40,814 nucleotides of DNA, taken from contig JAFGUB010000049.1 in the NCBI GenBank assembly GCA_016938735.1, positions 1 to 40,814 of the forward strand, in the 5' to 3' direction. Below the pieces are notes generated by a model that was not told the DNA's origin, did not search any database, and was given only the letters and a program-made list of their open reading frames with translations. Of the stretch, positions 137 through 40,599 are shown piece after piece. The position numbers and the translations under genes were made by a program. Each line of letters opens with the position of its first letter. Position 1 is the stretch's first letter. This stretch comes from Campylobacterales bacterium. Its GTDB lineage: Bacteria; Campylobacterota; Campylobacteria; Campylobacterales; Sulfurimonadaceae.

Positions 137-1066
137 TTATGGTATATAAACCTTCTCTAACATCTCTGTATATTCATCCATACTCTTACTGTCGAGGGTA
201 ATGCCCCCGCCACTTTTGTAGATCAGTTGTTCTCCATTTTGCTCGATAAATCGGATCATTACGGCACTCTCAAGTTTTTTCCCGTCATAGATGCCGAATA
301 CCCCGCTAAAGTAGCCTCTGTCGTAGCCTTCTATATGTTTTAAAATACGAACCGTGCTGATTTTCGGCGTGCCGCTGATGCTGCCTGCCGGTAACAGTTT
401 TCGAATCATGGTACCGAGATGACTACGCCAGTCGCTAGGGAGTGTTCCGCTGATATGCGAGCTTACATGTAAGAGCCTTTTTGCCCCTGCCGCAATAGTC
501 TGTGTGTATCGGAAGCGCTCAACGGTAACCTGGGTCGCAATCTGACTTAGATCGTTTCGAAGTAGATCGACGATCATAGTGTGTTCTGCCATCTCTTTGG
601 GATTGGCAAGGATACGTGACTCTGCATCTTGAATATCAGCGTCGATAGTCCCTTTCATCGGAAAGGTGTTGATGGTGTCGTTTTCAATGGTGATGAAGGG
701 CTCTGGAGAGAAGCAGACGAATTGATCTTTTACATGTAAGCGGTACGGTGCATCGGAACGTTCAAAAATTTCTCGAAGCGTGAGGTTGGTTGTGATTGGC
801 GTGGGTTGGGTAAGGTTGGCTAGGTAGGTATTGCCGCGACGGATCTCTTCGATCAATGCATCAAATTTGTCTTTGTAGGTCGTATAAGGGATCGGGGTGC
901 GCGAGAGTGTTTTGTCGCCGTTCTTTGGGTGTTCTCTGATCGCATAGGCGATCCCGTGCGCTTCAAGTGCGTCGAGCGGTATGACATGCGCTTTGCTTCC
1001 CAGATAATCGGTGTAAAAGAGAAAAGGGATTTGACTGGCCGCATAGCGGCTCATCAGTTCAAACAT
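137..1066 (-). CDS. pabB: aminodeoxychorismate synthase component I
   Basis: Uses chorismate and ammonia (from a PabA glutaminase, not in this window) to make 4-amino-4-deoxychorismate, a precursor of the folate p-aminobenzoate ring. The 309-residue protein is the short form carrying the chorismate-binding domain, ending in the typical EMLEKVY. The motif PMKGT is visible: the Lys is the catalytic residue that separates PabB from TrpE (which has Ala there), so I prefer PabB to anthranilate synthase. Conserved blocks [18 protein letters not shown] and YSGVFG-type ([10 protein letters not shown]) are present. The first ATG overlaps the pyrB stop by 8 bases, implying a bioD-pyrB-pabB transcript, though pyrB also has a candidate promoter. 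Two TTACATGTAA copies lie inside (463-472, 730-739), each read as Leu-His-Val. Confidence 0.93.
463..472. repeat. TTACATGTAA copy in pabB
   Basis: Exact palindrome; read on the minus coding strand as Leu-His-Val followed by Ser. Confidence 0.95.
730..739. repeat. TTACATGTAA copy in pabB
   Basis: Exact palindrome; read in pabB as Leu-His-Val-Lys. Confidence 0.95.
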
Positions 1067-1975: not shown

Positions 1976-2617
1976 TTAGTTTATAAGGGCCTTTGCCAGC
2001 GCTTCAAGCCCCTGATCCGTTCTAAAATAACCCGGAAAACGGGTGTTAAAATAGGGGGCGCTGATCCGATCAAAGGTATTATCGCCTCCATGCAGATTGA
2101 CGATCCACTCATGTGCGATTTGACGGTTTTGCAGCGCTTCAAGGCTCAGCAGGGTATCGTTGATGCACCCCAGCGATGCGTGGGTGACGAGCAGGGCTTT
2201 GGCCTCAAAAAGCGGGATCAAGTCGATCATCATCCCCGCTTCATCGACCGGAACGAGCAGCCCGCCGGCCCCTTCGATCAGCAAAATATCACAGTGCGCT
2301 TCGAGACGCGTAGCAGCCTCAAGCAGTCGTGTGCGTTCAATTAGGCGGCCTTGATTGGCCACATACGGGGCTGCGGGCAAAGCAAAAGTGAAGGTGACGA
2401 CATCGCTTACATGTAACGAAGCGGCATGCGGATTGAGCGTGCGCATCAGGCCATAGAGCGCTTGTGCATCGACGGGATGATTTTCGACGCCTGTTTCGAT
2501 CGGTTTGTAGGCGCAGACTCGAAGTCCTTGGTCGGCGTAATGGCGCATGAGCTGCAGGGTCGTATGCGTTTTTCCGACATTGGTATTGGTGGCGGTGACG
2601 AAGATCCGTTTAGCCAA
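1976..2617 (-). CDS. bioD: dethiobiotin synthetase
   Basis: ATP-dependent closure of the ureido ring of dethiobiotin from 7,8-diaminopelargonate and CO2, the penultimate step of biotin synthesis. The 213-residue protein opens with a P-loop ([10 protein letters not shown], residues 7-16), followed by YKPIETG with the conserved Lys and the EGAGGLLVP block near residue 115. The start codon is TTG at 2617, chosen because it places the P-loop at the usual position and has AAAGG upstream. No other biotin gene is nearby. A TTACATGTAA copy at 2407-2416 encodes Leu-His-Val-Ser. Confidence 0.94.
2407..2416. repeat. TTACATGTAA copy in bioD
   Basis: Exact palindrome; read as Leu-His-Val-Ser. Confidence 0.95.
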
Positions 2618-2667: not shown

Positions 2668-3903
2668 ATGAATCGCTTTGAAAAGTACAACACGCAACTG
2701 GTGCAGAAGATCGGCGCGAAAGAGGGGCCGATCTCGCCTTCGATCACCCATTCGGCTTCGTTTGGTTATGGCAGCTGCGAAACGGCGGAGGGGATTTTTG
2801 ACGGTAGTGTGAAAAAGCCGCTCTATGCCCGCGTAGGCAATCCGACCAGTGCCCAGCTTGAGTCGGTTTTGGCACAGATGGAGGGGGGAGTAGGCTCCGT
2901 GGCGACCGCTTCGGGGATGGCGGCGAGTGCTTTGGCGGTGATGTCGATTGTCAGCGCGGGCGATGAAGTGATCAGCATCGGCGGGCTTTTTGGGGGGAGT
3001 TATTCGCTGTTCAACGAGACCTTGCGCCGTTTTGGGGTTCAAAGCCACTTCTTTGCAGTCGATGACCTTGATGCGATTGAAGCAGCGATCAACGATCATA
3101 CCAAGCTGATCTTTTTAGAGAGTGTCGGCAACCCCAATCTGCAACTGCCCGATATCGCCGCCATCGGCGCGATTGCCCGCAAACAGGGCGTGGCGCTCGC
3201 GGTGGACAATACCGTCACACCGCTGTGCGTACGCCCTCTTGAGCTGGGTGCCGATATCGTGATCTATTCGACAACCAAGCTGATTACCGGTAACGCTTCG
3301 GCGCTGGGCGGGGCGGCGATCTATCGCGCGATTAACGAGAGTGAGGATAAGTTCAAAACGGAGCGCTATCAAGATTTGCACCCCTTTATGGAGAAGATGG
3401 GTGCGACGGCGCTGATCGGCGTGGCCAAAAAACGGGCCATGCGCGATCTGGGGATGAGCCCCGACGCTTTTGGCAGCTATCTGACGCTGCTGGGTCTTGA
3501 GACCTTGGGGCTGCGGATGGAGCGCATTGCACAAAGCGTTGAGCGGGTGGCTGCGGCGCTGCATCATACGGGCTTACATGTAAGCCATCCCTCACTCCTG
3601 CATCATCCGCATCATGAGCGCTATAAAACGCTTTTTGAGGGGGGATGCGGGCCGCTTTTGACCATCGATTGCGCCGACAAAAGTGAAGCGTTTAGGCTGC
3701 TCAATCGCCTCAAGCTCACCACCATCACCGCCAATATCGGCGACAGCCGTACCCTTGCGCTGCACATGGCTTCGACCATCTATCGGGATTTCGACGCGCC
3801 GACACGCGCTTTTTTGGGGATTACGCCGGGATTGATCCGCGTCTCTATCGGGCTGGAGTCGCCTCAGGACATCATTGATGATTTTGTTCAAGCTGCGACG
3901 TGA
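2668..3903 (+). CDS. metY: O-acetylhomoserine sulfhydrylase-type PLP enzyme
   Basis: Member of the Cys/Met-metabolism PLP family (fold type I). The likely reaction is replacement of the acetyl group of O-acetylhomoserine by sulfide or methanethiol to give homocysteine or methionine. The 411-residue protein shows YARVGNPT near residue 52, the ATASGMAA cofactor loop near 90, and the Schiff-base Lys in YSTTKLITG near residue 205. Length and the T-K-L-I-T-G context fit sulfhydrylases better than cystathionine synthases, but exact substrate cannot be fixed from sequence. It is a single gene with its own promoter. A TTACATGTAA copy, here a 16-bp perfect palindrome (3571-3586), encodes Leu-His-Val-Ser. 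Confidence 0.85.
   Translation: MNRFEKYNTQLVQKIGAKEGPISPSITHSASFGYGSCETAEGIFDGSVKKPLYARVGNPTSAQLESVLAQMEGGVGSVATASGMAASALAVMSIVSAGDEVISIGGLFGGSYSLFNETLRRFGVQSHFFAVDDLDAIEAAINDHTKLIFLESVGNPNLQLPDIAAIGAIARKQGVALAVDNTVTPLCVRPLELGADIVIYSTTKLITGNASALGGAAIYRAINESEDKFKTERYQDLHPFMEKMGATALIGVAKKRAMRDLGMSPDAFGSYLTLLGLETLGLRMERIAQSVERVAAALHHTGLHVSHPSLLHHPHHERYKTLFEGGCGPLLTIDCADKSEAFRLLNRLKLTTITANIGDSRTLALHMASTIYRDFDAPTRAFLGITPGLIRVSIGLESPQDIIDDFVQAAT
3574..3583. repeat. TTACATGTAA copy in the metY-like gene
   Basis: Core of a 16-bp perfect palindrome, GGCTTACATGTAAGCC at 3571-3586; read as Leu-His-Val-Ser. Confidence 0.95.
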
Positions 3904-3993: not shown

Positions 3994-4003
3994 TTACATG
4001 CAA
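3994..4003. repeat. variant palindrome TTACATGCAA in the clpS leader
   Basis: One change from TTACATGTAA. It lies between the putative -10 box and the clpS start, so it would sit at or near the transcription start. Confidence 0.6.
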
Positions 4004-7691: not shown

Positions 7692-7696
7692 TCTTG

Positions 7697-7722
7697 CTTG
7701 ACGGATCGCTCCGTCAAGTTTT
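7697..7722 (+). terminator. intrinsic terminator between the DUF3015 and DUF4105 genes
   Basis: Perfect 9-bp stem, CTTGACGGA (7697-7705) with TCCGTCAAG (7710-7718), loop TCGC, then TTTTCC. It lies 6 bases after the DUF3015 stop and ends just before the DUF4105 start, so expression of the second gene would need read-through or a weak promoter of its own. Confidence 0.88.
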
Positions 7723-7729
7723 CCTCTCA

Positions 7730-9571
7730 GTGAAGTTATTTTTCTTCTTCTTCTTTTTCTTACATGTAACACTTTGGGCCGATGCGGCGCACTACCACCG
7801 ACTTGCTGATGAGATGAAACTCGATGGCGAGCGTTATTGGCAGCTGCTCTTACATGTAAGCAATGGGAGCAGCGAGATTGATGATCCTGAATTTTTTCTC
7901 TCCCCAAGCGGTAAAACCGATTTTAAATCTGAGTTGCACGCGACGTTAGATGCGCTGTATGGTGAGACCCATTTCGATGATAATGCGACGGCGTGTCGCT
8001 ATCCCGCGCGCACGGCATGGCTACGCGAGCAGCTTGATCTGCAAGGACTGCCGGACGTTACATGTAACGAATATGACACCCTTGTGCGCAAGATCGATCC
8101 GCGCTCCGTGACACTGGTCTTTGCCGATGCACATATCAACTCCCCCGCGTCGATGTTCGGGCACACCTTTTTGCGCATTGACAGTGCGTATGAATCGAAG
8201 CTGCTCTCCCATGCGATCAACTACGCCGCCAATGCCGATCAGAGCAAAGAGAATGGTGTGGTGTTTGCTATCAAGGGGCTCTTTGGCGGTTACCCCGGTA
8301 TCTACTCGCTGCTGCCCTATTATGAGAAGCTCAGCGAATACAAAAGCACCGAACAACGCGATATTTGGGAGTATGAACTCAATTTGAGCGAGGAAGAGGT
8401 GCGCCGTATGGTGGCACACATCTGGGAGATCCACGCGACCTATTCGTGGTACTACTTTTTTGACGAGAACTGCTCTTACCACATGCTTTGGTTGCTGGAG
8501 GTGGCGCGGCCTAGCGTACATCTGCGTGAGCACTTCTGGTATCAGGTGATACCGCCTGAGACGGTAATGGCCGTGGAAGCAGAGGGGTTGATCGCCAAGA
8601 ACCGTTTTCGCCCCTCCAAACGCTCTTTATTGCTCGCCTACGAAACGGAGCTCTCCAAAGAGGAGCGCTTGCTGGCGATGTCGGTGGCGCTTGGCAAACA
8701 GCCTGTTGCGGCGCTTTTGGCTGATACCAAACGATCGCTCCAGCAACAGCAACGACTGCTTGAGGCTGCGGCAGAGTTGTGCGAATATTACCTCATCGAG
8801 CATCGCCTCTCCAAAGAGCGCTATCTGGAGCGGTTTCAGGAGATTCTCAAAGCGCGCGCTGCTTTGGGGCATAGTGAGCCCTTACATGTAAAGGTTCCGC
8901 CCAATCCTCTGCAAGCACACCCTTCAAGCAGACTCAGCTACGCGCTGGGCAGCAGCAAGGGCGATCTAACCCACTATTTTGGTGTACGTGCTTCGTATCA
9001 GGCCATCGGTGAGGCCGATGAGGGGCTGCTGGAGGGGACGCAGATTGAGTTTTTTGATCTTTTGTTGCGTTATACGCGCGAGCCGGGTATGGATCAGCAG
9101 GCCAAGCGGATCGAGCTTGAACAGCTGAGCGTGGTTTCCCTCAGCTCCTTGGCTATGCGCGGTGACTTTTTTACCCCCTTTTCGTGGCGGATGCGTTTGG
9201 GGTGGGATCGAGACGGAGTCGATGCGCGTCTGCGTGCCCATGTGCGCTTGGGTGCAGGGAGAGCGTGGGACGTGGGGGCAGGGTATGCGTACGCTTTGGC
9301 CGAACCTTTTGCCTATTATGACGTGAACGAGGCACATCAGGCGGGTGTGATGGGAAGCGTCGGTGCTTTGGTACGACCGGTGCAGGGGTGGTACAGCGCT
9401 TTGGAGTATGGCTATCGCTTTTATCATGACGGCGCACGTCAGCATCTGCTCAAGGTGACACAGCGTGCGGCGCTACGGCGCGATCTCACCTTAGGGGTCG
9501 AATACCGCTTTATCGGACGTGACGGGCCTGATGAAAACCGTTTCAAAGCCCTTGTGGACTATTATTTCTAA
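7730..9571 (+). CDS. DUF4105 family envelope protein
   Basis: About 613 residues. The GTG at 7730 is preferred over a TTG at 7694, because the upstream start would place the terminator hairpin inside the coding region and would bury the signal peptide. From GTG the protein begins MKL, then seven Phe, then LHVTLWA, a usable signal peptide. The DUF4105 core (about 95-290 by the new numbering) has LVFADAHINSPASMFGHTFLRID and FFDENCSYHMLWLLE, with conserved His and Cys residues resembling a papain-like hydrolase arrangement. The C-terminal 200 residues have alternating patterns (GAGRAWDVGAGYAYAL, YSALEYGYRFYHDG) and end in Phe, which suggests an outer-membrane beta-barrel. Function unknown. It carries four TTACATGTAA copies, the most of any gene here. 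Confidence 0.8.
   Translation: MKLFFFFFFFLHVTLWADAAHYHRLADEMKLDGERYWQLLLHVSNGSSEIDDPEFFLSPSGKTDFKSELHATLDALYGETHFDDNATACRYPARTAWLREQLDLQGLPDVTCNEYDTLVRKIDPRSVTLVFADAHINSPASMFGHTFLRIDSAYESKLLSHAINYAANADQSKENGVVFAIKGLFGGYPGIYSLLPYYEKLSEYKSTEQRDIWEYELNLSEEEVRRMVAHIWEIHATYSWYYFFDENCSYHMLWLLEVARPSVHLREHFWYQVIPPETVMAVEAEGLIAKNRFRPSKRSLLLAYETELSKEERLLAMSVALGKQPVAALLADTKRSLQQQQRLLEAAAELCEYYLIEHRLSKERYLERFQEILKARAALGHSEPLHVKVPPNPLQAHPSSRLSYALGSSKGDLTHYFGVRASYQAIGEADEGLLEGTQIEFFDLLLRYTREPGMDQQAKRIELEQLSVVSLSSLAMRGDFFTPFSWRMRLGWDRDGVDARLRAHVRLGAGRAWDVGAGYAYALAEPFAYYDVNEAHQAGVMGSVGALVRPVQGWYSALEYGYRFYHDGARQHLLKVTQRAALRRDLTLGVEYRFIGRDGPDENRFKALVDYYF
7760..7769. repeat. TTACATGTAA copy in the DUF4105 signal peptide
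   Basis: Exact palindrome directly after the poly-Phe run; read as Leu-His-Val-Thr within the presumed signal peptide. Confidence 0.95.
7850..7859. repeat. TTACATGTAA copy in the DUF4105 gene
   Basis: Exact palindrome, 80 bases after the previous copy end; read as Leu-His-Val-Ser. Confidence 0.95.
8058..8067. repeat. TTACATGTAA copy in the DUF4105 gene, Thr-Cys frame
   Basis: Exact palindrome within a 14-bp palindrome-like CGTTACATGTAACG (8056-8069); read as Val-Thr-Cys-Asn. Confidence 0.95.
8882..8891. repeat. TTACATGTAA copy in the DUF4105 gene
   Basis: Exact palindrome; read as Leu-His-Val-Lys at the junction between the enzyme-like and barrel-like parts. Confidence 0.95.
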
Positions 9572-11828: not shown

Positions 11829-12365
11829 ATGCTTGAAGGCATTCTTAGAGAGAGTACCGGTAAGCGCTCGGTTAAAGCGCTGCGCCGAGATGGTTATCTA
11901 ATCGCGAACATCTACGGAAAAGGTTTGGAAAACATCCACGCCGCGTTCAAAATGAACGATTACATCCGTACGGTTCGCAATAAAACCACCTTGGCATTCC
12001 CAATCAAAATCGCGGATCAAGAGATGAATGTGGTGGTTCAAGCCTATGAATCTCATCCGGTCACCGGCATCTTGTTACATGTAGACCTGATGGTTGCTCA
12101 ATGCGGCGTCGTCACCCACTACCATATACCTGTTGCAACGGTCGGTTCGCCGGTCGGCTTGAAAAACAAAGGGATGCTTTACATCGCCAAGCAGCGTCTG
12201 CGTGTTAAAGCTGCGATTGAAAACGTACCTTCGATGTTGACCGTCGATGTCTCTAACCTCGACTTGGGCGACTCTATGCTGATTCGTGATCTTCCTAAGA
12301 TCGACAACGTCACCTTTACCGATTCTGAACGCGTATCGGTAATGAGTGTTATCAAAGCGAAGTAA
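11829..12365 (+). CDS. rplY: 50S ribosomal protein L25 (Ctc form)
   Basis: Binds 5S rRNA in the large subunit. The 178-residue protein is the long Ctc form with an L25 N-terminal domain (LEGILRESTGKRSVKALRRDGYLIANIYGKG) and a C-terminal TL5-like beta domain (residues about 95-178, including VGSPVGLKNKG). The ATG is preceded by AAAGGATTT. It heads the conserved rplY-pth-lptG-lysA block; its stop overlaps the pth ATG by one base (TAATG). A one-mismatch palindrome at 12075-12084 encodes Leu-His-Val-Asp. Confidence 0.95.
   Translation: MLEGILRESTGKRSVKALRRDGYLIANIYGKGLENIHAAFKMNDYIRTVRNKTTLAFPIKIADQEMNVVVQAYESHPVTGILLHVDLMVAQCGVVTHYHIPVATVGSPVGLKNKGMLYIAKQRLRVKAAIENVPSMLTVDVSNLDLGDSMLIRDLPKIDNVTFTDSERVSVMSVIKAK
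12075..12084. repeat. variant palindrome TTACATGTAG in rplY
   Basis: Last base differs from TTACATGTAA; read as Leu-His-Val-Asp, the G being the first base of the Asp codon. Confidence 0.85.
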
Positions 12366-12925: not shown

Positions 12926-12935
12926 CTACATGTAA
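12926..12935. repeat. variant palindrome CTACATGTAA in the pth-lptG spacer
   Basis: One base from the consensus, non-coding, 4 bases after the pth stop and 19 bases before the lptG ATG. Confidence 0.8.
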
Positions 12936-14042: not shown

Positions 14043-14052
14043 TTACATGTAA
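14043..14052. repeat. TTACATGTAA copy in the lptG-lysA spacer
   Basis: Exact, non-coding, inside the 14-bp palindrome GCTTACATGTAAGC (14041-14054); lies 13 bases after the lptG stop. A weak GATAGAAT box follows at about 14062-14069. Confidence 0.95.
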
Positions 14053-17158: not shown

Positions 17159-18248
17159 TCAAACGCTAGAATCGATCAAAACCTATGAAGCGGGCAAGCC
17201 CATCGAGCTGGTGGTGCGTGAATTCGGTATCGCACCTGAAGCGATCGTCAAGCTTGCAAGCAATGAAAATCCTTACGGTTGTTCCTTACATGTAAGCCAA
17301 GCGGTGTCGCACATTCTCTCTAAAATGGCGCGCTACCCGGATGATTCGATGTATAAGCTTAAAGCAGCACTGGCCAAGCGCTATGACGTGGGGGCGCATC
17401 AGGTGATTATCGGTTCGGGCAGCGATCAGGTGATCGAGTTTGCCGTACACGCCAAAGCGAGCGCCTCAAGGCCAGTGCTGATGAACTCCATCACCTTTGC
17501 AATGTATGAGATTTACGCGAAGCATGTGGGTGCTCCTGTCGTGCGCACGACGTCACGCCACCATGATCTTGAAGCGTTTTATGCGCTCTATGAGCAGCAT
17601 CATCCTTCGATAATCTTCATCTGTACACCCAACAACCCCACCGGCGACGCGATCGATGCCGCGGAGCTGATCGCCTTTTTAGAGAAGATCGACGGCGATA
17701 CGCTGGTGATTGTAGATGGTGCCTATATGGAGTACGGACGCACTAAAGATGCTGCAAAGGCGCTGGAGGTCTCAAGTTTGGTTGCACGTTTTGCCAACGT
17801 GCTCTATCTAGGAACTTTTTCCAAAGCGTACGGCTTAGGAGGAATGCGTGTCGGATACGGTATCGCCTCGGCACCGATCATTGAAGCGCTTTACAAGCTT
17901 CGCCCTCCTTTTAACATCACCACCCTCTCGCTTGAAGCGGCCACGGTGGCACTCGAGGATGATGCCTTTATCGAGCACAGCGTTTTGAAAAATTTTGAGC
18001 AGATGGCACGATACGAGGCATTTGCCAAAGCGCGCGGTTTTAGCTACATTGACAGTTATACCAACTTCATCACGCTCTGTTTCGACGCACCTCTAAACGG
18101 TACCGCCATAGCGCAGAAGCTGCTTTCTCGGGGCATGATCGTACGTGATCTGGCCGGTTACGGCCTCAATGCAATACGGGTGACGATCGGTTTGCCCGAA
18201 GAGAACGACCGCTTTTTTGAACTCTTTGATCTTGTCCTCAAGGATTAG
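17148..18248 (+). CDS. hisC: histidinol-phosphate aminotransferase
   Basis: PLP transaminase of fold type I. From the ATG at 17148 (preceded by AAAGGGAGAA) the protein has 366 residues. It has [10 protein letters not shown] near residue 37, ICTPNNPTG, the VDGAYMEYG segment, and the Schiff-base Lys in [17 protein letters not shown]. Lying directly after pheA and far from any his operon, it may also transaminate phenylpyruvate or prephenate, an inference from context. An upstream in-frame ATG at 17106 is rejected because it lacks a binding site and would lengthen the overlap. A TTACATGTAA at 17286-17295 encodes Leu-His-Val-Ser. Confidence 0.92.
17286..17295. repeat. TTACATGTAA copy in hisC
   Basis: Exact palindrome; read as Leu-His-Val-Ser shortly after the conserved Asn-Pro-Tyr-Gly motif. 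Confidence 0.95.
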
Positions 18249-21800: not shown

Positions 21801-23628
21801 CGAACCACTCAATATCAAGAGATACTCCATCAAGGAGCTAGAAACCCTGTGTGATCAGATCAGGGGACGCATTTTGGAAGTGGTCAGTCATAACGGCGGC
21901 CATTTAAGTTCGACGCTCGGTGCAACTGAGTTGATCGTTGCGATGCACAAAGTCTTTGACGTAACGCGTGATCCGTTTATTTTTGATGTATCGCATCAAG
22001 CCTATGCGCACAAGCTGCTCACGGGTCGATGGGAGGCCTTCGAGACGCTGCGGCAGTTTGGCGGCATCAGCGGTTATACGAAGCCTAGCGAGTCCGCATG
22101 TGACTATTTTGTGGCAGGGCACAGTTCTACCTCCATCTCACTAGGCGTGGGTGCGGCCAAAGCGATTGCGCTCAAAAAAGAGCAGCATCTGCGCGTGCCG
22201 GTAGTGATGATCGGTGATGGGGCGATGAGCGCGGGGATGGCTTATGAGGCGATGAATGAACTCGGGCACCATAAATATCCGATGGTGATCATTCTTAACG
22301 ACAACGAAATGAGCATTGCCAAACCGATCGGCGCGATCAGTCGGGTGCTCAGTTCTGCGATGGCGAGTCCTTTTTACCAGCGCATCAAGCGCAATGTCGA
22401 GCAGTTTGTGGACAACTTCGGCGATGGTGCGCACTATCTGGCAAAGCGTTTTGAAGAGTCGTTCAAGCTCATTACCCCCGGGATCATCTTTGAGGAGATG
22501 GGCATCGAGTATATAGGCCCGGTGGACGGACACAACCTCAAGCAGCTTATCGAGACCTTTGAGATCGCCAAGGCACTCAAAAAGCCGGTGATTATTCATG
22601 CCCAGACCATTAAAGGCAAAGGGTATAAGATCGCCGAAGGGCATCATGAACATTGGCACGGGGTGGGACCTTTTGATTTGGAGAGCGGCAAAGCGAGCAA
22701 GAAGGCATCAGGTAAGAGTGCGACCCAGATCTATGCCGAGGCGCTCTTACATGTAGCGCAAAAAGATGAAAAAGTGGTGGGCGTTACCGCCGCAATGCCC
22801 AGCGGGACGGGATTAAGCGCTTTGATGGAGGCCTATCCCGAGCGGTTTTGGGATGTGGCGATTGCCGAGCAGCACGCCGTGACTTCGATGGCTTCGCTGG
22901 CCAAGGAGGGCTTCAAACCCTTTTGCACCATCTATTCGACCTTCTTGCAGCGTGGGTATGATCAGGTGATCCACGACGTCTGCTTGATGAATCTGCCGGT
23001 GGTTTTTGCGCTCGATCGCGCCGGTATCGTGGGCGAAGACGGTGAGACGCATCAGGGGGTATTTGATATCAGTTTTCTGCGGCTTATTCCCAATATGACC
23101 TTGCTGGCCCCGCGCGACGAGCATTCGATGCATCAGGCGGTAGGGTTTGCCCATAGGTATAATTATCCCTGCGCGATCCGCTATCCGCGCGGCAGCTTTA
23201 TTACTGCCGATCTGCCCCAGTCGCTCCCTTTTGAACTGGGGCGCGCGCAGCTACTACAAGAGGCGCAGAGTGATTTGCTGCTGATCGGCTATGGAAACGG
23301 CGTCGGGCGTGCGGCGCAGACGCTTGAATTGATGGAATGCAGTGCCGCGCTCTTGGATCTGCGCTTTGTCAAGCCGCTCGATTCGGAGTGCTTACATGTA
23401 ATGGCCCAAAAGCATAAGCGTTGGTTTGTCTTTAGCGATTCGGCCAAAGCGGGCGGCGTGGGTTCGGCACTGATGGAGTGGCTTAGTGAGGCAGGCATCG
23501 GCGATGTACGGGTGCTGAGCTTCGAGTATGAAGACGCCTTTATCAAACACGGCAACACCCAAAAAGTGGAGGAGTCTTTGGGGCTTTTGCCCGAACAGCT
23601 CGCACGCCGTATCGAGCAGATGCTTTAG
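21793..23628 (+). CDS. dxs: 1-deoxy-D-xylulose-5-phosphate synthase
   Basis: Thiamine-diphosphate enzyme joining pyruvate and glyceraldehyde 3-phosphate for the MEP isoprenoid pathway. The 611-residue protein has the conserved His in LSSTLGATE, the cofactor motif GDGAMSAGMAYEAMNE ending in ILNDNEMSI, and the pyrimidine-binding DVAIAEQHAVT. It also has FLQRGYDQVIHDV and DRAGIVGEDGETHQG. It begins with GTG inside the end of fliH and converges with uvrD, overlapping its stop by four bases. Two palindrome copies encode Leu-His-Val. Confidence 0.96.
   Translation: MNNEPLNIKRYSIKELETLCDQIRGRILEVVSHNGGHLSSTLGATELIVAMHKVFDVTRDPFIFDVSHQAYAHKLLTGRWEAFETLRQFGGISGYTKPSESACDYFVAGHSSTSISLGVGAAKAIALKKEQHLRVPVVMIGDGAMSAGMAYEAMNELGHHKYPMVIILNDNEMSIAKPIGAISRVLSSAMASPFYQRIKRNVEQFVDNFGDGAHYLAKRFEESFKLITPGIIFEEMGIEYIGPVDGHNLKQLIETFEIAKALKKPVIIHAQTIKGKGYKIAEGHHEHWHGVGPFDLESGKASKKASGKSATQIYAEALLHVAQKDEKVVGVTAAMPSGTGLSALMEAYPERFWDVAIAEQHAVTSMASLAKEGFKPFCTIYSTFLQRGYDQVIHDVCLMNLPVVFALDRAGIVGEDGETHQGVFDISFLRLIPNMTLLAPRDEHSMHQAVGFAHRYNYPCAIRYPRGSFITADLPQSLPFELGRAQLLQEAQSDLLLIGYGNGVGRAAQTLELMECSAALLDLRFVKPLDSECLHVMAQKHKRWFVFSDSAKAGGVGSALMEWLSEAGIGDVRVLSFEYEDAFIKHGNTQKVEESLGLLPEQLARRIEQML
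22747..22756. repeat. variant palindrome TTACATGTAG in dxs
   Basis: One base from consensus; read as Leu-His-Val-Ala. Confidence 0.85.
23392..23401. repeat. TTACATGTAA copy in dxs
   Basis: Exact palindrome; read as Leu-His-Val-Met. Confidence 0.95.
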
Positions 23629-27239: not shown

Positions 27240-27821
27240 TTAGCTTTTTAGCGCCATTATACCATCTTGCACGATGTGAAACCCCAGCATAGCATTGAGC
27301 AGCGCCAAGCCTTCATATTGCGAGAGTTTATCAACCCTGATGGGGCGTACATGTAAGCGCCCCTCATCAATAAGCCGTGCGCGCGTAGTCCCCGCTAGCA
27401 GCGGTGTATGTGGCGTATACCAAAGCCCGTTCTGCAAGAAAGCGACGTTGGCGATGGGGGTGTCGGTGATATAACCGTTTTGAACGATCAGGACCGAGTC
27501 GCACGCTCCGTTTTGGGTCTGGAGCGCATCAAGGGCGCTGCGGTCGGCGTATTTGTACATGTAATCAATCCGCTCGGCCTGAATGAGCCGCAATGAGCGC
27601 GGGGGATGCGGTGTATAGGGGTGGTAACCGGTTTGGATACCGTGCGCGTCGTAGAGGACGCGGCAGCGCCAGAGTCCGCTTGGCGGTGGATCGAGCAGGG
27701 AGGCGAGATCATAATGCGCGTCGATACTGTGGGCATAAAGGGTGCGTTCAAGTCGTGATTGATGGTAGCTTATATGCGCTATTTTTCCCTCAGAGGCGCA
27801 CAGCGTCTCGAGAAAACGCAC
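27240..27821 (-). CDS. pabC: class IV aminotransferase, probable aminodeoxychorismate lyase
   Basis: Removes pyruvate from aminodeoxychorismate to yield p-aminobenzoate. The protein has about 193 residues from GTG at 27821, directly behind the cysK stop; the open frame continues upstream but antisense-like inside cysK, so the longer form is rejected. Visible family features are FLETLCASEGKIAHISYHQSRLERT, the PLP Lys candidate in DYMYKYADR, the NGYITDTPIANVAF block with Glu replaced by Thr-Asp, and TPLLAGTTRARLI. Short class IV enzymes of this type are typical in Campylobacterota. D-amino acid or branched-chain specificity is not excluded. Two palindrome variants lie inside. Confidence 0.82.
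   Translation of the reverse strand: MRFLETLCASEGKIAHISYHQSRLERTLYAHSIDAHYDLASLLDPPPSGLWRCRVLYDAHGIQTGYHPYTPHPPRSLRLIQAERIDYMYKYADRSALDALQTQNGACDSVLIVQNGYITDTPIANVAFLQNGLWYTPHTPLLAGTTRARLIDEGRLHVRPIRVDKLSQYEGLALLNAMLGFHIVQDGIMALKS
27347..27356. repeat. variant palindrome GTACATGTAA in pabC
   Basis: One base from consensus; on the coding strand TTACATGTAC, read Leu-His-Val-Arg. Confidence 0.85.
27555..27564. repeat. variant palindrome GTACATGTAA in pabC, Tyr-Met-Tyr frame
   Basis: On the coding strand TTACATGTAC, read Asp-Tyr-Met-Tyr-Lys. The variant last base prevents an in-frame TAA that the exact palindrome would create. Confidence 0.85.
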
Positions 27822-27822
27822 G

Positions 27823-28749
27823 TTACGAATCGCTAAAGAGCGCCGTGGAGATATAGCGCTCTCCGGTGTCGCAGAGGATCGTGACCACTGTTTTGCCCTG
27901 ATTTTCGGGTCTGGAGGCGACCTGCATGGCGGCAAAAACATTGGCACCGGCGGAGATACCCACCAGCAGCCCTTCGCTGCGTGCGAGCATCTTGGCCGTG
28001 GCGATAGCGTCTTCGTTGCTGACGGTGAGCACCTCGTTGTAGATGGCGGTATTGAGCACTTGGGGGACAAAACCCGCACCGATGCCCTGAATCTTGTGCG
28101 CACCGGGCGCTCCGCCTGAGAGCACGCTGGAGTCTTGGGGTTCGACGGCGATCACCTGCAGATGCGGTAGCGCTTCGCGCAGGACTTCTGAGGTGCCCGT
28201 CAGGGTGCCGCCGGTGCCTACGGCAGCGACGAAGATGTCGATTTTGCCCTCAGTGTCGCGCAAAATTTCCGGTGCGGTCGTATCGCGGTGGATTTGGGGA
28301 TTGGCAGGGTTTTCAAACTGCTGCAAAATGATCGATCCGGGAAGCTCACGCTGCAGCTCTACGGCCCGCTCAATCGCACCGCGCATCCCTGCGGCGGCAG
28401 GGGTGAGCACCAGCTCCGCCCCAAGCGCCTTGAGCAGGTTGCGCCGCTCGACGCTCATCGATTCGGGCATGGTGAGGATGAGCCGTAGCCCCAACGCCGC
28501 GCAGATGGAGGCGAGGGCGATACCGGTATTGCCGCTGGTGGGTTCGATGATGACGCCGTGCTCTTTAAGCCGCCCCTCTTGGAGTGCGCTGTGGATCATG
28601 TTAAAGCCGATGCGGTCTTTGACGGAGCTGGTAGGGTTCATAAATTCGCATTTTCCAAGGATGGTCGCGCCGCTTTGCGATGAGGGGGCGCCCAGGCGAA
28701 CCAGAGGGGTATTGCCGATGAGCTCGGTGATATTGTGCGCAATCTTCAT
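27823..28749 (-). CDS. cysK: cysteine synthase A (O-acetylserine sulfhydrylase)
   Basis: PLP enzyme making cysteine from O-acetylserine and sulfide. From ATG at 28749 (MKIAHNITELIGNTPLVRL) the protein has 308 residues; an upstream in-frame ATG at 28788 is rejected because the conserved N terminus begins at MKIAHN. The PLP Lys is in MNPTSSVKDRIG, the substrate loop is EPTSGNTG, and the phosphate-binding loop GTGGTLTGTS. Its stop is one base from the pabC start. Sulfide-based cysteine synthesis fits a sulfur-metabolising host, as does the MetY-type enzyme at 2.7 kb. Confidence 0.95.
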   Translation of the reverse strand: MKIAHNITELIGNTPLVRLGAPSSQSGATILGKCEFMNPTSSVKDRIGFNMIHSALQEGRLKEHGVIIEPTSGNTGIALASICAALGLRLILTMPESMSVERRNLLKALGAELVLTPAAAGMRGAIERAVELQRELPGSIILQQFENPANPQIHRDTTAPEILRDTEGKIDIFVAAVGTGGTLTGTSEVLREALPHLQVIAVEPQDSSVLSGGAPGAHKIQGIGAGFVPQVLNTAIYNEVLTVSNEDAIATAKMLARSEGLLVGISAGANVFAAMQVASRPENQGKTVVTILCDTGERYISTALFSDS

Positions 28750-28839: not shown

Positions 28840-30063
28840 TTAAGGGGTGACGATGCCCGTACCCGCCGCATTGGCGGCGTGGAAAATGACGGTGCCGTGG
28901 CGTTTGGCGTAGTAGCGCATCAAAAGCCGCTGCAAGGTCGGCTCAATCGAGGGCATAAACCAAGCGTTGTTGCTGATGACGATCATGTAGCGCGGTGCGC
29001 CGATGTAGAGATCTTCATGGGTTGCTTCGTAGCAGACAGCGTTGCGAAACCAAATCCCCTTGACCGCAAAATTGCTCGGTGCCTCGGCGTGCAGGTAGTC
29101 CGAAGCGCCGTCAAAAAAGGTGCGGTTGACATACTCGCGTGCAAAGGCGGGCAAAGGGATGTACTCGCCGAAGGGAACCAGCACCATCTTTTTGAAAATC
29201 TGCATCTCACCTTGATCGAACAGGTAGGTGACGTTGTAGTTGGCACCGTTATCGTATTGTAATGAGCCGGTGACGATGGTGATGGCGTAGGAGCGCTCTT
29301 TGAGCTGTTCGATAAGATCGGGGCGCAAGTTTAAAAAGAGGGCGAAGGCCGATTCGGGGAGCACGACGACGTCGTAGCCTTCGTCGATTGCGGCATCGAT
29401 GGCTTGAAAATTGTTGCGGTTGATGCGCGGCTCCATGTAGCTTTGCCACTTGAGCTCCTGAGGAAGATCGGTGGCGATGAGCTTGATGCTTAGCGGCGGC
29501 ATGTTCACCTCGTGCGTTTTAAAATCAAGCGCGGCAAGGAGCAGCAGCCATGCAATATGGCGGCGCGGATGCTTACATGTAAGCACAAACGCGATCACGG
29601 CAAGGACGAGCGCAAACTGCCACTTCTCCACTCCGAAATAGCTCTCGACCAGTAGCAGCTCAGGCACCATCCAGTTGAAGTTAAAAGGGGCGATCAGGCT
29701 CAGGGCAAGCAAGATCAGCACGCGCCATCTGGGATCGGCGCTCAGCGAGAGCAGGCCGAAATAGATCATGTAGACGAGACCGAACCCAAATGAGACGATG
29801 GGAATCATGTAGCCGACGTGGTAATACTCGAAGCTGTAGCCGATCCAGTAAAACCACGCAAGCCCGATCCAAAAACCGCCCCAAAGCAGTGCACCGCGTG
29901 GCAAAAAGAGCAGCAGAGCGTAGGCGATCAACGCCGCAAGGGTGTTGCAGGGTTTGCATGTAAAGCCGTAGTGTTCGGCGTAGAGAAAAAAAGAATAGGC
30001 GATAGTGAGTGCCAATCCCAAGGAGAGTTGTCGAAGGAGAGAGGTGAGAATCGGCCGTGACAT
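28840..30063 (-). CDS. lnt: apolipoprotein N-acyltransferase
   Basis: Adds the third acyl chain to lipoproteins at the inner membrane. The 407-residue protein (from ATG at 30063) has about six N-terminal membrane helices (up to about residue 175) and a nitrilase-type periplasmic domain. The catalytic triad is visible: Glu237 in VVVLPESAF, Lys292 in KKMVLVPFGEY, Cys344 in NAVCYEATHE. The C-terminal membrane helix usual in E. coli Lnt is missing; the protein ends at AAGTGIVTP. ATGs at 30072 and 30093 are alternatives. Two palindrome copies encode Thr-Cys. Confidence 0.88.
   Translation of the reverse strand: MSRPILTSLLRQLSLGLALTIAYSFFLYAEHYGFTCKPCNTLAALIAYALLLFLPRGALLWGGFWIGLAWFYWIGYSFEYYHVGYMIPIVSFGFGLVYMIYFGLLSLSADPRWRVLILLALSLIAPFNFNWMVPELLLVESYFGVEKWQFALVLAVIAFVLTCKHPRRHIAWLLLLAALDFKTHEVNMPPLSIKLIATDLPQELKWQSYMEPRINRNNFQAIDAAIDEGYDVVVLPESAFALFLNLRPDLIEQLKERSYAITIVTGSLQYDNGANYNVTYLFDQGEMQIFKKMVLVPFGEYIPLPAFAREYVNRTFFDGASDYLHAEAPSNFAVKGIWFRNAVCYEATHEDLYIGAPRYMIVISNNAWFMPSIEPTLQRLLMRYYAKRHGTVIFHAANAAGTGIVTP
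29573..29582. repeat. TTACATGTAA copy in lnt, Thr-Cys frame
   Basis: Core of a 16-bp perfect palindrome TGCTTACATGTAAGCA (29570-29585); read as Leu-Thr-Cys-Lys within or at the end of a membrane helix. Confidence 0.95.
29954..29963. repeat. variant palindrome TTGCATGTAA in lnt
   Basis: On the coding strand TTACATGCAA, the same variant as the copy before clpS; read as Phe-Thr-Cys-Lys. Confidence 0.65.
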
Positions 30064-33312: not shown

Positions 33313-33340
33313 CCTTACATGTAAGGGCCCCTTGCGGCCC
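33313..33340 (+). promoter_or_regulatory. palindrome and G/C hairpin in the leuS leader
   Basis: CCTTACATGTAAGG (33313-33326) overlaps GGGCC (33325-33329), which can pair with GGCCC (33336-33340) around a 6-base loop. There is no T-run, so this is not an intrinsic terminator. It ends 16 bases before the leuS start. Confidence 0.4.
33315..33324. repeat. TTACATGTAA copy in the spacer before leuS
   Basis: Exact, within the 14-bp palindrome CCTTACATGTAAGG; non-coding given the leuS start at 33357. Confidence 0.95.
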
Positions 33341-33356: not shown

Positions 33357-35798
33357 TTGGAATACACACCCTCAAGCATTGAGCAAAAGTGGCAGATGAG
33401 ATGGAGCGAGACGCGCAGTTTTGAGCCATCTAGCGACACAAGCAGACCTAAAAAGTACATTTTGAGCATGTTTCCCTACCCAAGCGGACGCATCCACATG
33501 GGGCATGTGCGCAACTATACCATCGGCGACGTCTTCGCGCGCTATTACCGCCAGCAGGGCTTTAATGTGCTGCACCCCATCGGCTGGGACAGCTTCGGGA
33601 TGCCGGCCGAGAATGCGGCGATCAAGCATGGCGTACACCCCAAAAAGTGGACCTATGAGAACATCGACTATATGCGCAAAGAGCTGGCCTCTTTGGGGCT
33701 TTCGTTTTCTCAAGAGCGTGAATTTGCCACCTCCGATCCGCTCTATACGAAGTTCGAACAGGGCTTTATCATCGATATGTTCGAGCGGGGATTGCTCTAC
33801 CGCAAAAAAGGTTCGCTCAACTGGTGTCCGCACGATCAGACGGTGCTGGCCAATGAGCAGGTGATCGAGGGGCGATGCTGGCGCTGCGATACCGAGGTGG
33901 TACAGCGCGATATGTACCAATATTACCTGCGCATTAGCGACTATGCCCAAGAGCTGCTTGATGATTTGGCGAGCCTAGAGGGTTTGTGGCCCAAGCAGGT
34001 GCTCACCATGCAGGAGAACTGGATCGGGCGCTCCAGCGGTCTTGCATTTACGCTGCACTTTGATGAGAGCTCACGCCAGAAACTCGGGGGAGCGTTTGAG
34101 GGCTTCGAGGTCTTTACGACGCGGCCCGATACCATCTACGGCGTGACCTACGCGGCGATTGCTCCCGAGCATGAGATCGTTAGCCGTCTGATGGAGAGCG
34201 GCGCACTCGATGACGCAAGCGTCGCCGCGATTACGGCGATGAAAAACACGGGCGCGGTGGATCGTCAAAAGCACAAGCAAGGGGTGTCGCTGGGCGTACA
34301 TGTAACCCATCCGCTGACCAAAAAACGCATCCCCGTCTGGGTGGCCAACTTCGTGCTGATGGGCTATGGCAGCGGGGCGGTGATGGCCGTTCCGGCGCAT
34401 GATGAGCGTGATTTTGATTTCGCCGCGCAGTATGGACTGGATGTTGTGCGGGTGATCGCGCCGCTTGAGGGCGCGGCAAAAGAGGACACGGCGTTTACCG
34501 ACGTGGGCGTGCTTTTTGATTCGGGCGACTTTAGCGGATTGCGCAGCGACGCGGCCAAAGAGGCGGTGATTGCGCATTTTGAATCTCAGGGTTTAGGCAA
34601 ACGGGTGGTCAATTTCCGCCTTAAAGACTGGGGCCTTTCGCGCCAGCGTTATTGGGGCGCACCGATGCCTTTTATCCACTGTCCTACCTGCGGCATCGTG
34701 CCTGAATCCAAAGCAAATTTGCCGGTGGCGCTGCCTGAAGATGTCCAGATCACCGGCGAGGGCAATCCGCTGGATCATCACCCCACATGGAAGTTCTGCA
34801 CCTGCCCCAAATGCGGCGCTGCGGCGCAGAGAGAGACCGATACGATGGATACCTTCGTGCAGTCGTCGTGGTACTTTTTGCGCTACTGCTCAAAAGAGCG
34901 CGACGTCGCCTTTACTCCTGATGAGCTGGGCTACTGGATGAACGTCGATCACTACATCGGCGGGATTGAGCATGCGATTTTGCATCTGCTCTATGCACGC
35001 TTCTTTACGAAGGTATTGCGTGATTTGGGATACGTTACATGTAAGGAACCCTTCGAGCGGCTGCTCACACAGGGGATGGTACTCAAAGACGGCGCGAAGA
35101 TGAGTAAATCCAAAGGCAATACCGTCGATCCCGATGCGCTGATTGAAAAGTACGGCGCCGATACCGCGCGGCTCTTTATCCTCTTTGCCGCGCCGCCCAC
35201 CCAAGAGCTGGAGTGGAACGACAGTGCGGTAGAGGGGGCGTGGCGCTTTTTACGCCGCTTTGCCGAGCGCTCTGATATGGCCTATGCCACCCAAAGCATC
35301 CCGCTGATCGACCACGGCGCTTTGAGCAAAAACGAGCAGACGGCGCGCAAAAAGGTCTATGAGGCGCTGGTGCGTTCTCAAGAGGTCTTTACTCAGCGCT
35401 ACACCTTCAACACAATGATCGCCGGCGTGATGGAGGCGATGAACGCGCTGAATGATCAGAGCAACAGCGACGTTTGGACGGAGGGGTACTGGATTTTGCT
35501 GCACATCATGGAGCCGATCGTGCCGCATCTGTGTTGGGAGCTGAGCGAACGGCTCTTTACATGTAAGAACCTCTCAAGCGTCACGGTGCGTGAAGAGGTC
35601 TTCGTGGTCGATACGATCACACTGGGTGTTTCGGTCAACGGCAAAAACCGCGCCGAGATTGAAGTGGGCGCGGATGAAGCGCAAGAGGCCATTATCGCCA
35701 AAGCCAAAGAGGCGGTTGCGCGCTGGATAGAAGGCAAGGAGATACATAAAGAGATCGTCGTACCGCGCAAGCTGGTCAATCTCGTCATCAAAGGCTAG
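33357..35798 (+). CDS. leuS: leucyl-tRNA synthetase
   Basis: Charges tRNA-Leu. The start is TTG at 33357 ([13 protein letters not shown]) with AGCGGAG seven bases upstream; a frame open to an ATG at 33258 is rejected because it runs through the preceding gene. The 813-residue class I enzyme has the HIGH motif as HMGH at 47-50 and a zinc-binding pair (CPTCG, CPKCG). The editing domain at about 220-410 includes TTRPDTIYG. The second catalytic motif KMSKS is at 581-585. The C-terminal anticodon domain is standard. Three palindrome copies lie inside, one Val-His-Val and two Thr-Cys. Confidence 0.95.
34296..34305. repeat. variant palindrome GTACATGTAA in leuS
   Basis: One base from consensus; read as Val-His-Val-Thr in the editing domain. 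Confidence 0.85.
35035..35044. repeat. TTACATGTAA copy in leuS, Thr-Cys frame
   Basis: Exact palindrome; read as Val-Thr-Cys-Lys. Confidence 0.95.
35557..35566. repeat. TTACATGTAA copy in leuS, Thr-Cys frame
   Basis: Exact palindrome; read as Phe-Thr-Cys-Lys. Confidence 0.95.
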
Positions 35799-37860: not shown

Positions 37861-39009
37861 TTGGGCCTGCAGGCGTTTTTAGGGGACAAACCGCTCTATT
37901 ATGACGTCATCGACTATGACCGTTTTCCGCGCATCTACAACACGATCCGCGCCGCGTTTGCGCACGGGCGCATCATCCATATCGTCGGCACCAACGGCAA
38001 AGGGACGACGGGGCGCTTTATCGCGCACGCCTTACATGTAAGCGGCTTTCGGGTGGGGCACTACACATCGCCGCACATTCTGCACTTTAACGAGCGGGTC
38101 TGGATCGATGGAGCGGATGCGGATGATGCGACGCTTGAAGCGGCGCATGTGTGGCTGCTGGAGCGTTTGTCGCCTCAAGACGCGGAGGCGCTGAGCTATT
38201 TTGAGTACACGACGCTGCTGGCGATGCGCTGCTTCGATGGGTGTGATTATGTGGTGCTTGAGGCGGGGCTCGGCGGCGAGTTTGACGCGACCAACGTCTT
38301 TGAGAAGTATTATTCCGTTTTTACCCCTATCGGCATCGATCATCAGGCCTTTTTGGGTGAAACCATCGAGCAGATCGCAAGCACCAAGCTGCGCTCGATG
38401 GGGCAGCGCGCGCTGATCATGCATCAAAGCGAGGAGGCGGTCTATGCCCTAGCGCGCGGCATCGCCGATGCGCGCGGCAGCACGCTGGAGTGCGTCGCGG
38501 AGTGCGCGAGCGCCGATGGGTATGCCATCGTCGAAGCACTGGCGCACTCTGAGGTGAGCAGTGCGTATCTGCAGCGCAACCTGCTGGGTGCCATTACGCT
38601 GCTCGAGCGCTTACATGTAGAGGTTTCGCCCGCGCTCTTTGTCGGAGCACGGCTCTTTGGACGGCTCTCGAAGATCGCGCCTAATGTCTGGCTGGATGTG
38701 GGGCACAATGTGATGGCGGCCGAGGCACTGGCGCGCCACTTTGCGGGTGAGCGGCTGGTGCTGGTGTATAACAGCTATGGCGACAAAGATTACCGCACAA
38801 TTTTGGCACATCTAAAGCCCGTGATCAAGCGTGTGGAGCTGATTGCGGTTGATTCGGCGCGCATCGAAACGGATGAGAAGCTGCACAGCGCGCTTGAGGC
38901 GCTGGAGATCGCTTATGAACCTTTCGTTACATGTAAGCGTGATGAACTTTATCTGGTCTTTGGCTCATTTAGTGTGGCGGAAGCCTTTTTGAGGCGCTAT
39001 GAATCCTAA
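37861..39009 (+). CDS. folC: folylpolyglutamate / dihydrofolate synthase
   Basis: Joins dihydropteroate to glutamate and extends the polyglutamate tail. The 382-residue Mur-ligase-type protein has the P-loop IVGTNGKGTTGRF (about 40-52), the HYTSPHILHFNERVWIDG motif, and ATNVFEKYYSVFTPIGIDHQAFLG with the metal-binding His. The C-terminal domain includes VWLDVGHNVMAAEAL. Start TTG at 37861, with AGGGGATC upstream. The 3' end overlaps the M23 gene by 11 bases. Three palindrome copies lie inside. Confidence 0.93.
   Translation: MGLQAFLGDKPLYYDVIDYDRFPRIYNTIRAAFAHGRIIHIVGTNGKGTTGRFIAHALHVSGFRVGHYTSPHILHFNERVWIDGADADDATLEAAHVWLLERLSPQDAEALSYFEYTTLLAMRCFDGCDYVVLEAGLGGEFDATNVFEKYYSVFTPIGIDHQAFLGETIEQIASTKLRSMGQRALIMHQSEEAVYALARGIADARGSTLECVAECASADGYAIVEALAHSEVSSAYLQRNLLGAITLLERLHVEVSPALFVGARLFGRLSKIAPNVWLDVGHNVMAAEALARHFAGERLVLVYNSYGDKDYRTILAHLKPVIKRVELIAVDSARIETDEKLHSALEALEIAYEPFVTCKRDELYLVFGSFSVAEAFLRRYES
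38032..38041. repeat. TTACATGTAA copy in folC
   Basis: Exact palindrome; read as Leu-His-Val-Ser just after the P-loop. Confidence 0.95.
38611..38620. repeat. variant palindrome TTACATGTAG in folC
   Basis: One base from consensus; read as Leu-His-Val-Glu. Confidence 0.85.
38927..38936. repeat. TTACATGTAA copy in folC, Thr-Cys frame
   Basis: Exact palindrome; read as Val-Thr-Cys-Lys. Confidence 0.95.
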
Positions 39010-39826: not shown

Positions 39827-40599
39827 TGCCAGAAAAAGAGCGCCACTTCGACGGCGATGAGGATGATGATGATCCATTCGAGCAGGCTTGAGTGCATATG
39901 CTTTTGCTCATCGGCGAGCATCTCAAGCAGCTCTTGGATCACTTCGAGTTTTTGGTTGAGCACTTCGATGCGCTGGCGCACTTCGAGGTAGCGCGAGAGG
40001 GCGAGGTAGTAGGGTTCAAGTTCGGGGTACTCCCAAAAAAACTCCGGCGTATCGAGCAGGCCGTGGTGCAGGTGGATGTGCGATTTGGTCAAAAAGAGCT
40101 TGCCGCGCTCTTTGGAGAGGGCTTTTTTGCGCAGCGGTACGGTACCGTTTTTGGCCAGCGCTTCGGGGATGTAGCGGGTCTCTTCGATGATGCGCGCGAT
40201 GGAGAGCTCGAACTCTTCGAGTTTGACCGATTGCGCGATGGCGTGGCTCAGCGCTAGGCGGATCATATCATCAAGCTCGCTAAGCTCGATCTGGTCGTTT
40301 TTGATCTGGATCTGCGTCGCTTCGGGCTTTACATGTAAGCTGAGCTCATCTTCGGTGGGTTCGCTAAGCGCGGCCTGAGCGTATTCGAGCGCCGTATCGA
40401 TGAGGCGCTGTTCGTCGTCGTAGCGCATCCCCCAAAAGACGATGACACCGTAGTTGAAGACAAAAGCGCAGGACTCTTTGTGCTCGACTATGACGGCATC
40501 TTTGATCATCGAGGCCTTGGAGCGCTCACTGAGCGCTTCAAAAAGCGGCGTTTGGTTGAAGGCGTGGGCTAAAGAGAGGGCGCGGATACGGATGGGCAT
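39823..40599 (-). CDS. RMD1/YagE/Sif2 family (DUF155) protein
   Basis: 258 residues. Features of the DUF155 family are AFVFNYGVIVFWGM (about 45-58), the helical LARIIEETRYIPEALAKNG segment, FLTKSHIHLHHGLLDTPEFFWEYPELEPYY, and a coiled-coil (about 205-235). The single C-terminal membrane helix is at about 238-256 (EWIIIILIAVEVALFFW), a tail-anchor arrangement. Eukaryotic members act in mitochondrial translation and sporulation; the bacterial role is unknown. Start ATG at 40599 with CGGAG upstream. One palindrome copy at 40329-40338. Confidence 0.87.
   Translation of the reverse strand: MPIRIRALSLAHAFNQTPLFEALSERSKASMIKDAVIVEHKESCAFVFNYGVIVFWGMRYDDEQRLIDTALEYAQAALSEPTEDELSLHVKPEATQIQIKNDQIELSELDDMIRLALSHAIAQSVKLEEFELSIARIIEETRYIPEALAKNGTVPLRKKALSKERGKLFLTKSHIHLHHGLLDTPEFFWEYPELEPYYLALSRYLEVRQRIEVLNQKLEVIQELLEMLADEQKHMHSSLLEWIIIILIAVEVALFFWH
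40329..40338. repeat. TTACATGTAA copy in the DUF155 gene
   Basis: Exact palindrome; read as Leu-His-Val-Lys. Confidence 0.95.

Follow-up and report, generated by a model that had tools for sequence, protein, structure and literature searches.

The third-frame palindrome in a Campylobacterota pabC gene as one copy of a maintained, frame-filtered and probably HIP-type signal

HIP-type palindromes, iterated throughout a genome, are unexplained and are known mainly from cyanobacteria. In the sections of Elhai 2015 (PMC4390886) used here, HIP1 and the alternate HIPs are short palindromes that recur roughly every 1-3 kb, single-base deviations fall preferentially on the outermost positions, a methyltransferase reads the inner sequence, alternate palindromes occur in some relatives, and some genomes carry the palindrome without the enzyme. 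The palindrome described here, the 10-mer TTACATGTAA, resembles them in its density, in its outer-base deviations, and in occurring in some genomes without the enzyme. A candidate orphan D12-class methyltransferase that would act at the inner CATG, and a second palindrome in one relative, may correspond to the enzyme and the alternates. It differs from HIP1 in its Campylobacterota host, in being an AT-rich 10-mer with the core TACATGTA and neither GATC nor CGATCG, and in its association with an adenine (D12) methyltransferase rather than the cytosine methyltransferase of cyanobacteria. HIP1 in the strict sense, which is GC-rich, contains GATC or CGATCG and is cyanobacterial, was rejected for this AT-rich motif, and the class to which we assign it is HIP-like. 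It would represent an independent case in Campylobacterota, and the effects on frame and protein and the conservation between species that are measured here extend beyond the comparison with HIP1.

The neisserial uptake sequence, a signal with demonstrated uptake function, is non-palindromic and often occurs as close inverted pairs in terminators. Findlay and Redfield are said to have treated uptake sequences and proteomes in 2009, probably in the closest analysis of reading frames. The excerpted text of Frye 2013 (PMC3630211) describes the neisserial signal as a CTG core with graded flanks and eight dialects, and points out that where one frame yields a stop codon, the placement of copies in genes is limited. 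Uptake sequences number hundreds to thousands of copies. Our motif likewise has a core, graded flanks, copies on this scale and dialects, but it is a perfect palindrome, shows no excess of close pairs, and has only a hypothetical role in uptake. In Campylobacter jejuni, a member of the same class, DNA uptake requires RATTY sites methylated by CtsM, and this RATTY/RAATTY mark is an adenine-methylated palindromic self mark, according to the part of PMC8468864 relied on here. The methyltransferase differs from the one found in our genome. We know of no over-representation of the CtsM site, and CtsM presumably belongs to a different sequence family from our enzyme. Searches of an open-access library listed nothing that deals with such a repeated palindrome in either Sulfurospirillum or Sulfurimonas, and the papers containing the string TTACATGTAA have titles that look unrelated. 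A stop-codon limit is already known for another motif; as far as these searches go, our motif, the group of bacteria that carries it, and the measurement of the frame filter appear to be new.

We analyzed a window of 40,814 nucleotides, the whole of contig 27 (JAFGUB010000049.1) of a 2.85 Mb Campylobacterales genome (G000) from the family Sulfurimonadaceae. Its ClpA-like protein is most similar to those of Sulfuricurvum and Sulfurimonas MAGs, at up to 71%. The genome contains 1,061 exact copies of TTACATGTAA and none of the reversed-pattern control, and the window contains 17 exact and 10 one-mismatch copies, 27 together, where 0.51 are expected. In a sample of 778,247 bases, consisting of the window and 40 further stretches of the same genome (773,931 bases for the frame counts), the core TACATGTA occurs 471 times, compared with 84 for the next palindromic 8-mer; counted over both strands it occurs 942 times, against 15.6 expected from an order-3 model. 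Of 198 one-off variants of the 10-mer, 168 deviate at the outer pair, and the four inner pairs account for only 30. Genome-wide over-representation and one-off deviations at the outer bases, two of the properties of HIPs, are both observed. In the two free frames (frames one and two) the outer base is preferably A, followed by C and G, and then by T; in intergenic sequence the 3' outer base, read from either strand, is A at 220, G at 23, C at 16, and T at 3 of 262 ends. Outside the core the preference weakens outward, from T to C (58%) and then to C or G. TACATGTA is the strict part of the motif; its outer base is only softly preferred, whichever the frame. CAAAGAG and similar 8-mers were considered as a second motif and rejected, because they lie mostly in one codon phase and so reflect a codon effect.

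Sites of TACATGTA are spaced nearly exponentially, with a mean of 1.47 kb and no periodicity. Pairs closer than 25 bases number 8, against 7.3 expected, so close pairs acting as terminators were ruled out. The intergenic density is about three times the coding density (131 sites in 11% of the sequence). Within the intergenic fraction of the window and the 40 stretches, density was 3.13 per kb between divergent genes, 1.39 between tandem genes, and 1.33 between convergent genes.

Our own gene caller divides the window's 25 TACATGTA sites into 15 read as TTA CAT GTA (frame one), five read as TT ACA TGT AA (frame two), one third-frame copy, and four intergenic copies. Exact TTACATGTAA copies in frame one lie at 463..472 (in the minus-strand ORF 137-1066), 730..739, 2407..2416, 3574..3583, 7850..7859, 8882..8891, 17286..17295, 23392..23401, 38032..38041, and 40329..40338. 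Also in frame one are the variant TTACATGTAG at 12075..12084, 22747..22756, and 38611..38620, and GTACATGTAA at 34296..34305, which carries the same outer change as the copies in pabC. The frame-two copies, all TTACATGTAA, are found at 8058..8067, 29573..29582, 35035..35044, 35557..35566, and 38927..38936. Intergenic copies comprise CTACATGTAA at 12926..12935 and TTACATGTAA at 14043..14052, at 33315..33324 (intergenic by our own caller), and at 7760..7769, which our caller likewise places between genes but which falls within the longest ORF, 7694-9571, where it reads Leu-His-Val. Two further one-mismatch copies, TTACATGCAA at 3994..4003 and TTGCATGTAA at 29954..29963, belong to the rare class with an altered core.

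To follow the motif between species, 91 genes from 26% of G000 plus the window were aligned with orthologues in 353 kb of the genus mate G001; their mean amino-acid identity is 85%, and their third-position identity 0.57. Of 51 coding TACATGTA sites in G000, 44 have an intact counterpart in G001, compared with 5,173 of 28,807 8-mers. When only frame-one sites whose three residues are conserved are considered, 25 of 27 are intact, against 5,018 of 19,033 controls, and synonymous codons within sites were kept in 116 of 120 instances, where the same codons outside sites lead one to expect 48.7. The motif is actively kept. Its imprint on proteins was counted over 615 genes from our first gene caller: Leu-His-Val occurs 198 times against 39.6 expected (about fivefold), Tyr-Met-Tyr 30 times against 7.8 (about fourfold), Thr-Cys-Lys 51 against 5.3, and Thr-Cys-Asn 30 against 3.6, while FMY, YMF, and KCT stand at 0.2-0.4 of expectation. 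The palindrome shapes protein sequences.

The distribution of TTACATGTAA among relatives is patchy. Of the 397 genomes in the class, 26 carry at least 100 copies, as do 16 of the 101 in the family, and elsewhere counts are mostly 0-10. The patchiness extends within genera, as in genus g2, where the closed genome G052 has 340 copies and most others have fewer than 12. Three genomes of this genus, G063, G094, and G068, are enriched in ACATGT, and the first two in TACATGTA as well. In 71 kb, ACATGT occurs 59 times in G063 and 54 times in G094, against about 13; genome-wide it occurs 2,143 and 1,350 times, compared with 398 and 411 for TGTACA. The full 10-mer is nevertheless uncommon in both (96 and 77 copies), and the ACATGT-rich genomes look like an early or arrested stage. 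An alternate palindrome, TATCATGATA, was found in G155 of family f10 (stretches L210, L211, and L153), which has 166 copies, whereas none of the 396 other genomes of the class exceeds 23; G155 has few copies of TTACATGTAA, and both palindromes are centred on CATG. Since sister genomes with the palindrome, without it, with a half-built version (mainly ACATGT), or with another CATG palindrome are available, the driver is testable.

A candidate for that driver is a D12-class methyltransferase, about 330 residues long and encoded on contig C43 of G000 next to an ORF that we took by eye for recO. Among the neighbouring ORFs no restriction gene was recognized by eye. The enzyme falls in a D12 subfamily with phage members. 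One of these, 46% identical to it, bears the annotation 'ulcer associated adenine specific DNA methyltransferase', a label that we take to denote the Helicobacter pylori CATG enzyme hpyIM (M.HpyI). As described in the relevant part of PMC4450513, hpyIM recognizes CATG and in strain UM032 sits beside an iceA-like restriction gene. The neighbourhood in G000 differs from UM032 in showing no such recognizable gene. Judged from the phage-homologue annotation and the H. pylori literature, the orphan adenine methyltransferase of G000 is likely to be CATG-specific. A search of the PDB by sequence gave only chance matches for it. The motif as the type II site of a resident restriction-modification system was rejected, as the site is enriched rather than avoided and no adjacent restriction gene was recognized. 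Two other enzyme classes were also rejected as drivers: N6_N4 methylases (PF01555), present in 31 of 66 genomes and absent from G000, show no pattern with motif count, and Eco57I-type methylases (PF07669), found in 13 of the 14 genomes examined, do not discriminate between those rich and those poor in the motif.

Presence of the methyltransferase tracks the motif imperfectly. Counting homologues of this family (A1) above 400 bits as strong orthologues, 19 of the 26 genomes that reach 100 copies have one, compared with 77 of the 371 other genomes of the class (naive Fisher p 6e-8, kinship ignored); for the family set the figures are 10 of 16 and 10 of 85 (naive Fisher p 4e-5, kinship again ignored). 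In the Sulfurospirillum-like genus g39, 11 genomes with the enzyme carry 411-1,496 copies, and four without it carry 49, 238, 412, and 934 (Mann-Whitney p=0.006). Genus labels such as this one are tentative; G151 is taken for Sulfurospirillum diekertiae because the match on its contig C2 begins at the same base as that in plasmid NZ_CP059996.1. Seven of the 26 motif-rich genomes lack the A1 enzyme, among them G052, in which neither a D12 nor an N6_N4 methyltransferase was found, so that its motif is either a relic or the product of another driver. Close homologues are also common in family f2, probably Helicobacteraceae, where TTACATGTAA is not in excess; as 77 genomes, many of them in f2, have the enzyme and fewer than 100 copies, the enzyme is not sufficient. 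The single genome with TATCATGATA, G155, has a D12 enzyme.

We consider it probable that the third-frame copy in pabC is an ordinary member of a maintained palindromic signal whose copies are filtered by reading frame, with a driver that is likely HIP-type and linked to methylation. A process acting on DNA rather than on protein would make and keep copies everywhere, genes included. The driver would most likely be a HIP-type system in which the orphan D12-class methyltransferase modifies adenine in the inner CATG, with methylation acting through methyl-dependent repair or methyl-dependent uptake of self-DNA. Among drivers, a HIP-like, methylation-linked signal is the likeliest, with about an even chance of being right, and uptake without methylation is its main rival. 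In a bolder form, about which we are doubtful, the palindrome would serve self-recognition, being marked by the orphan CATG adenine methyltransferase, differing in dialect between species, spread by biased uptake or repair, and halted only by translation stops. Were it correct, hundreds of protein positions would have been rewritten to Leu-His-Val, Thr-Cys-Lys/Asn, or Tyr-Met-Tyr, with a TTACATGTAA dialect in Sulfurospirillum-like bacteria, some Sulfurimonadaceae, and a few other Campylobacterota, and a TATCATGATA dialect in at least one relative.

A DNA uptake sequence unrelated to methylation, spread by uptake bias and recombination and read by a receptor that is strict for the core and loose for the flanks, is a possible though unlikely driver. 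It would account for the hard core with graded flanks, for dialects sharing a core (TTACATGTAA and TATCATGATA), and for the exponential spacing, the roughly threefold intergenic density and the strong maintenance, even though the neisserial signal is not a palindrome and close pairs here are not above chance. The parallels to what PMC3630211 reports in the excerpted text include core, flanks, dialects, and the stop limit in one frame; the association with a CATG methyltransferase, however, would then be a coincidence.

In another reading, which we think quite unlikely, the orphan CATG methyltransferase would mark the motif and the uptake machinery would import DNA carrying the marked motif, as with CtsM in C. 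jejuni. It is weakened by the seven motif-rich genomes without the enzyme and by the different sequence family to which we assume CtsM belongs. On its side are the co-occurrence of an orphan adenine methyltransferase with the palindrome, the maintenance of the motif as if copied from population DNA, and the presence of the CtsM system in the same bacterial class, as given in the part of PMC8468864 used here.

Weak selection site by site, with the palindrome binding an abundant chromosome-organizing or regulatory protein, seems to us very unlikely. Strong conservation at synonymous positions and the raised frequency of sites between divergent genes are what it would lead one to expect; the random spacing without periodicity, the location of most copies in genes and in all three frames, the patchiness between sister species, and the stages enriched mainly in ACATGT are not.

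Returning to the DNA-level signal that we prefer, its filtering by frame was tabulated with our second gene caller, which gave 707 genes covering 89% of 773,931 bases; the counts depend on this simple caller of our own, two versions of which gave 31 and 37 frame-three copies. In this table TACATGTA occurs 197 times as TTA CAT GTA, 101 times as TT ACA TGT AA, and 37 times as T TAC ATG TAn, with 131 intergenic and five edge copies. Relative to the supply of near-misses, taken from two-mismatch sites in codon-shuffled genes and only a proxy, copies amount to 0.421, 0.318, and 0.040 in frames one, two, and three, which puts the use of frame three some 8- to 10-fold below that of the other two. The first-pass annotation had predicted that frame-three copies would be rare genome-wide, and at 37 of 335 coding copies, about tenfold under-used, they are.

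It had also expected every such copy to be altered at an outer base. This holds for the 33 of 37 that end in C (25) or T (8), none ending in G, and fails for the four that end in A, all of which form the gene's own TAA stop; the three frame-three copies that match the 10-mer exactly all lie at gene ends. Where a frame-three copy is one mismatch away from the 10-mer, the deviation is at position 10 in 27 cases, at position 8 in two, and at position 1 in one, and the many variants at other positions that the annotation had named as counter-evidence did not appear.

The preferred outer A would create TAA in frame three, so that within genes only the second choices C and T survive, and A is seen only where the gene truly ends. 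On a rough reckoning, this filter on the soft base explains most of the scarcity of frame three. If only C and T outer bases are counted, the supply ratios are 0.148, 0.107, and 0.054, and 33 frame-three copies are seen where 78 would be expected if the other two frames, pooled, set the rate, a 2.4-fold shortfall. Loss of the preferred A accounts for roughly a fourfold deficit; the division into fourfold and 2.4-fold parts is approximate, since shuffled genes stand in for the true supply. The 2.4-fold deficit left after allowing for the outer base means that the stop is not the whole story; perhaps it reflects the cost of Tyr-Met-Tyr, the probable source in our mechanism, or something similar. 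The frame table thereby gauges a DNA-level push on protein that goes as far as inserting Leu-His-Val or Tyr-Met-Tyr, but no stop.

The 5' outer base, which is free in frame three, is T in 30 of 37 copies there and in 236 of 298 copies in the other frames (Fisher p=1.0). At the 3' outer base, C is found in 32 of the 298 copies of the other two frames, and the ratio of C to T is 25:8 in frame three and 32:13 elsewhere (Fisher p=0.80). Six third-frame copies lie in the aligned genes, four of them common to G001, with outer bases that differ freely. The stop codon screens copies at a soft base and calls forth no special repair.

The pabC-like ORF, named by the first-pass annotation and by eye, occupies 27240..27830 on the minus strand, with a provisional start (the listed ORF runs to 28103). 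As that annotation stated, its copy at 27555..27564 (minus strand) is the only third-frame copy in the window, one of 25 TACATGTA sites. It reads TTACATGTAC on the coding strand (GTACATGTAA on the plus strand), that is T-TAC-ATG-TAC, giving Tyr-Met-Tyr, and the translation of the ORF 27240-28103 on the minus strand at this point is RIDYMYKYADR (...Asp-Tyr-Met-Tyr-Lys). As the core is hard and the outer base soft, the supposed change falls on a soft base. A second copy of TTACATGTAC in the same gene, overlooked by the first-pass annotation and 200 bases away at 27347..27356 (minus strand), lies in frame one as TTA CAT GTA C (Leu-His-Val-Arg) and also carries the outer C though no stop is at stake; here the motif-rich relatives G001, G003, and G020 have TTACATGTAA, with A for C. 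The first-pass view that the change answers a stop codon is not supported, given this frame-one C and the outer C in 32 of 298 other-frame copies at an equal C:T ratio.

Orthologues of pabC are present in 59 of 61 family genomes. Across 30 aligned orthologues, Tyr-Met-Tyr at the third-frame position occurs in G000 alone, and the motif is absent there from the other 29. The spot is variable, with codons TAC AGT TTC in G001, TAT CAT CTA in G003, and TAT CAC TTA in G020, so that relatives have Tyr-Ser-Phe or Tyr-His-Leu. Most simply, and with the direction judged from this alignment, the copy would have been gained in the G000 line together with amino-acid changes. As no relative has the motif at this position, and as an exact copy within the gene would truncate it, the exact palindrome need never have existed there. 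The single pabC copy is ordinary within the genome-wide picture. That the variant arose by repair, an exact palindrome forming first and then changing from A to C, is extremely improbable, for although the outer base avoids a stop in 33 of 37 frame-three copies, outer C is common elsewhere at the same C:T ratio, relatives lack a palindrome at this position, and the four sites common to G001 show free turnover of the outer base.

Two minor features of the motif's placement were also seen in the sampled stretches. At position 19941 of L092, GTACATGTACATGTAC consists of two overlapping cores six bases apart. At position 18914 of the same stretch, at 15246 of L099, and at 1789 of L105, the motif's last base coincides with the base at which a called gene begins, so that the motif overlaps the start codon.
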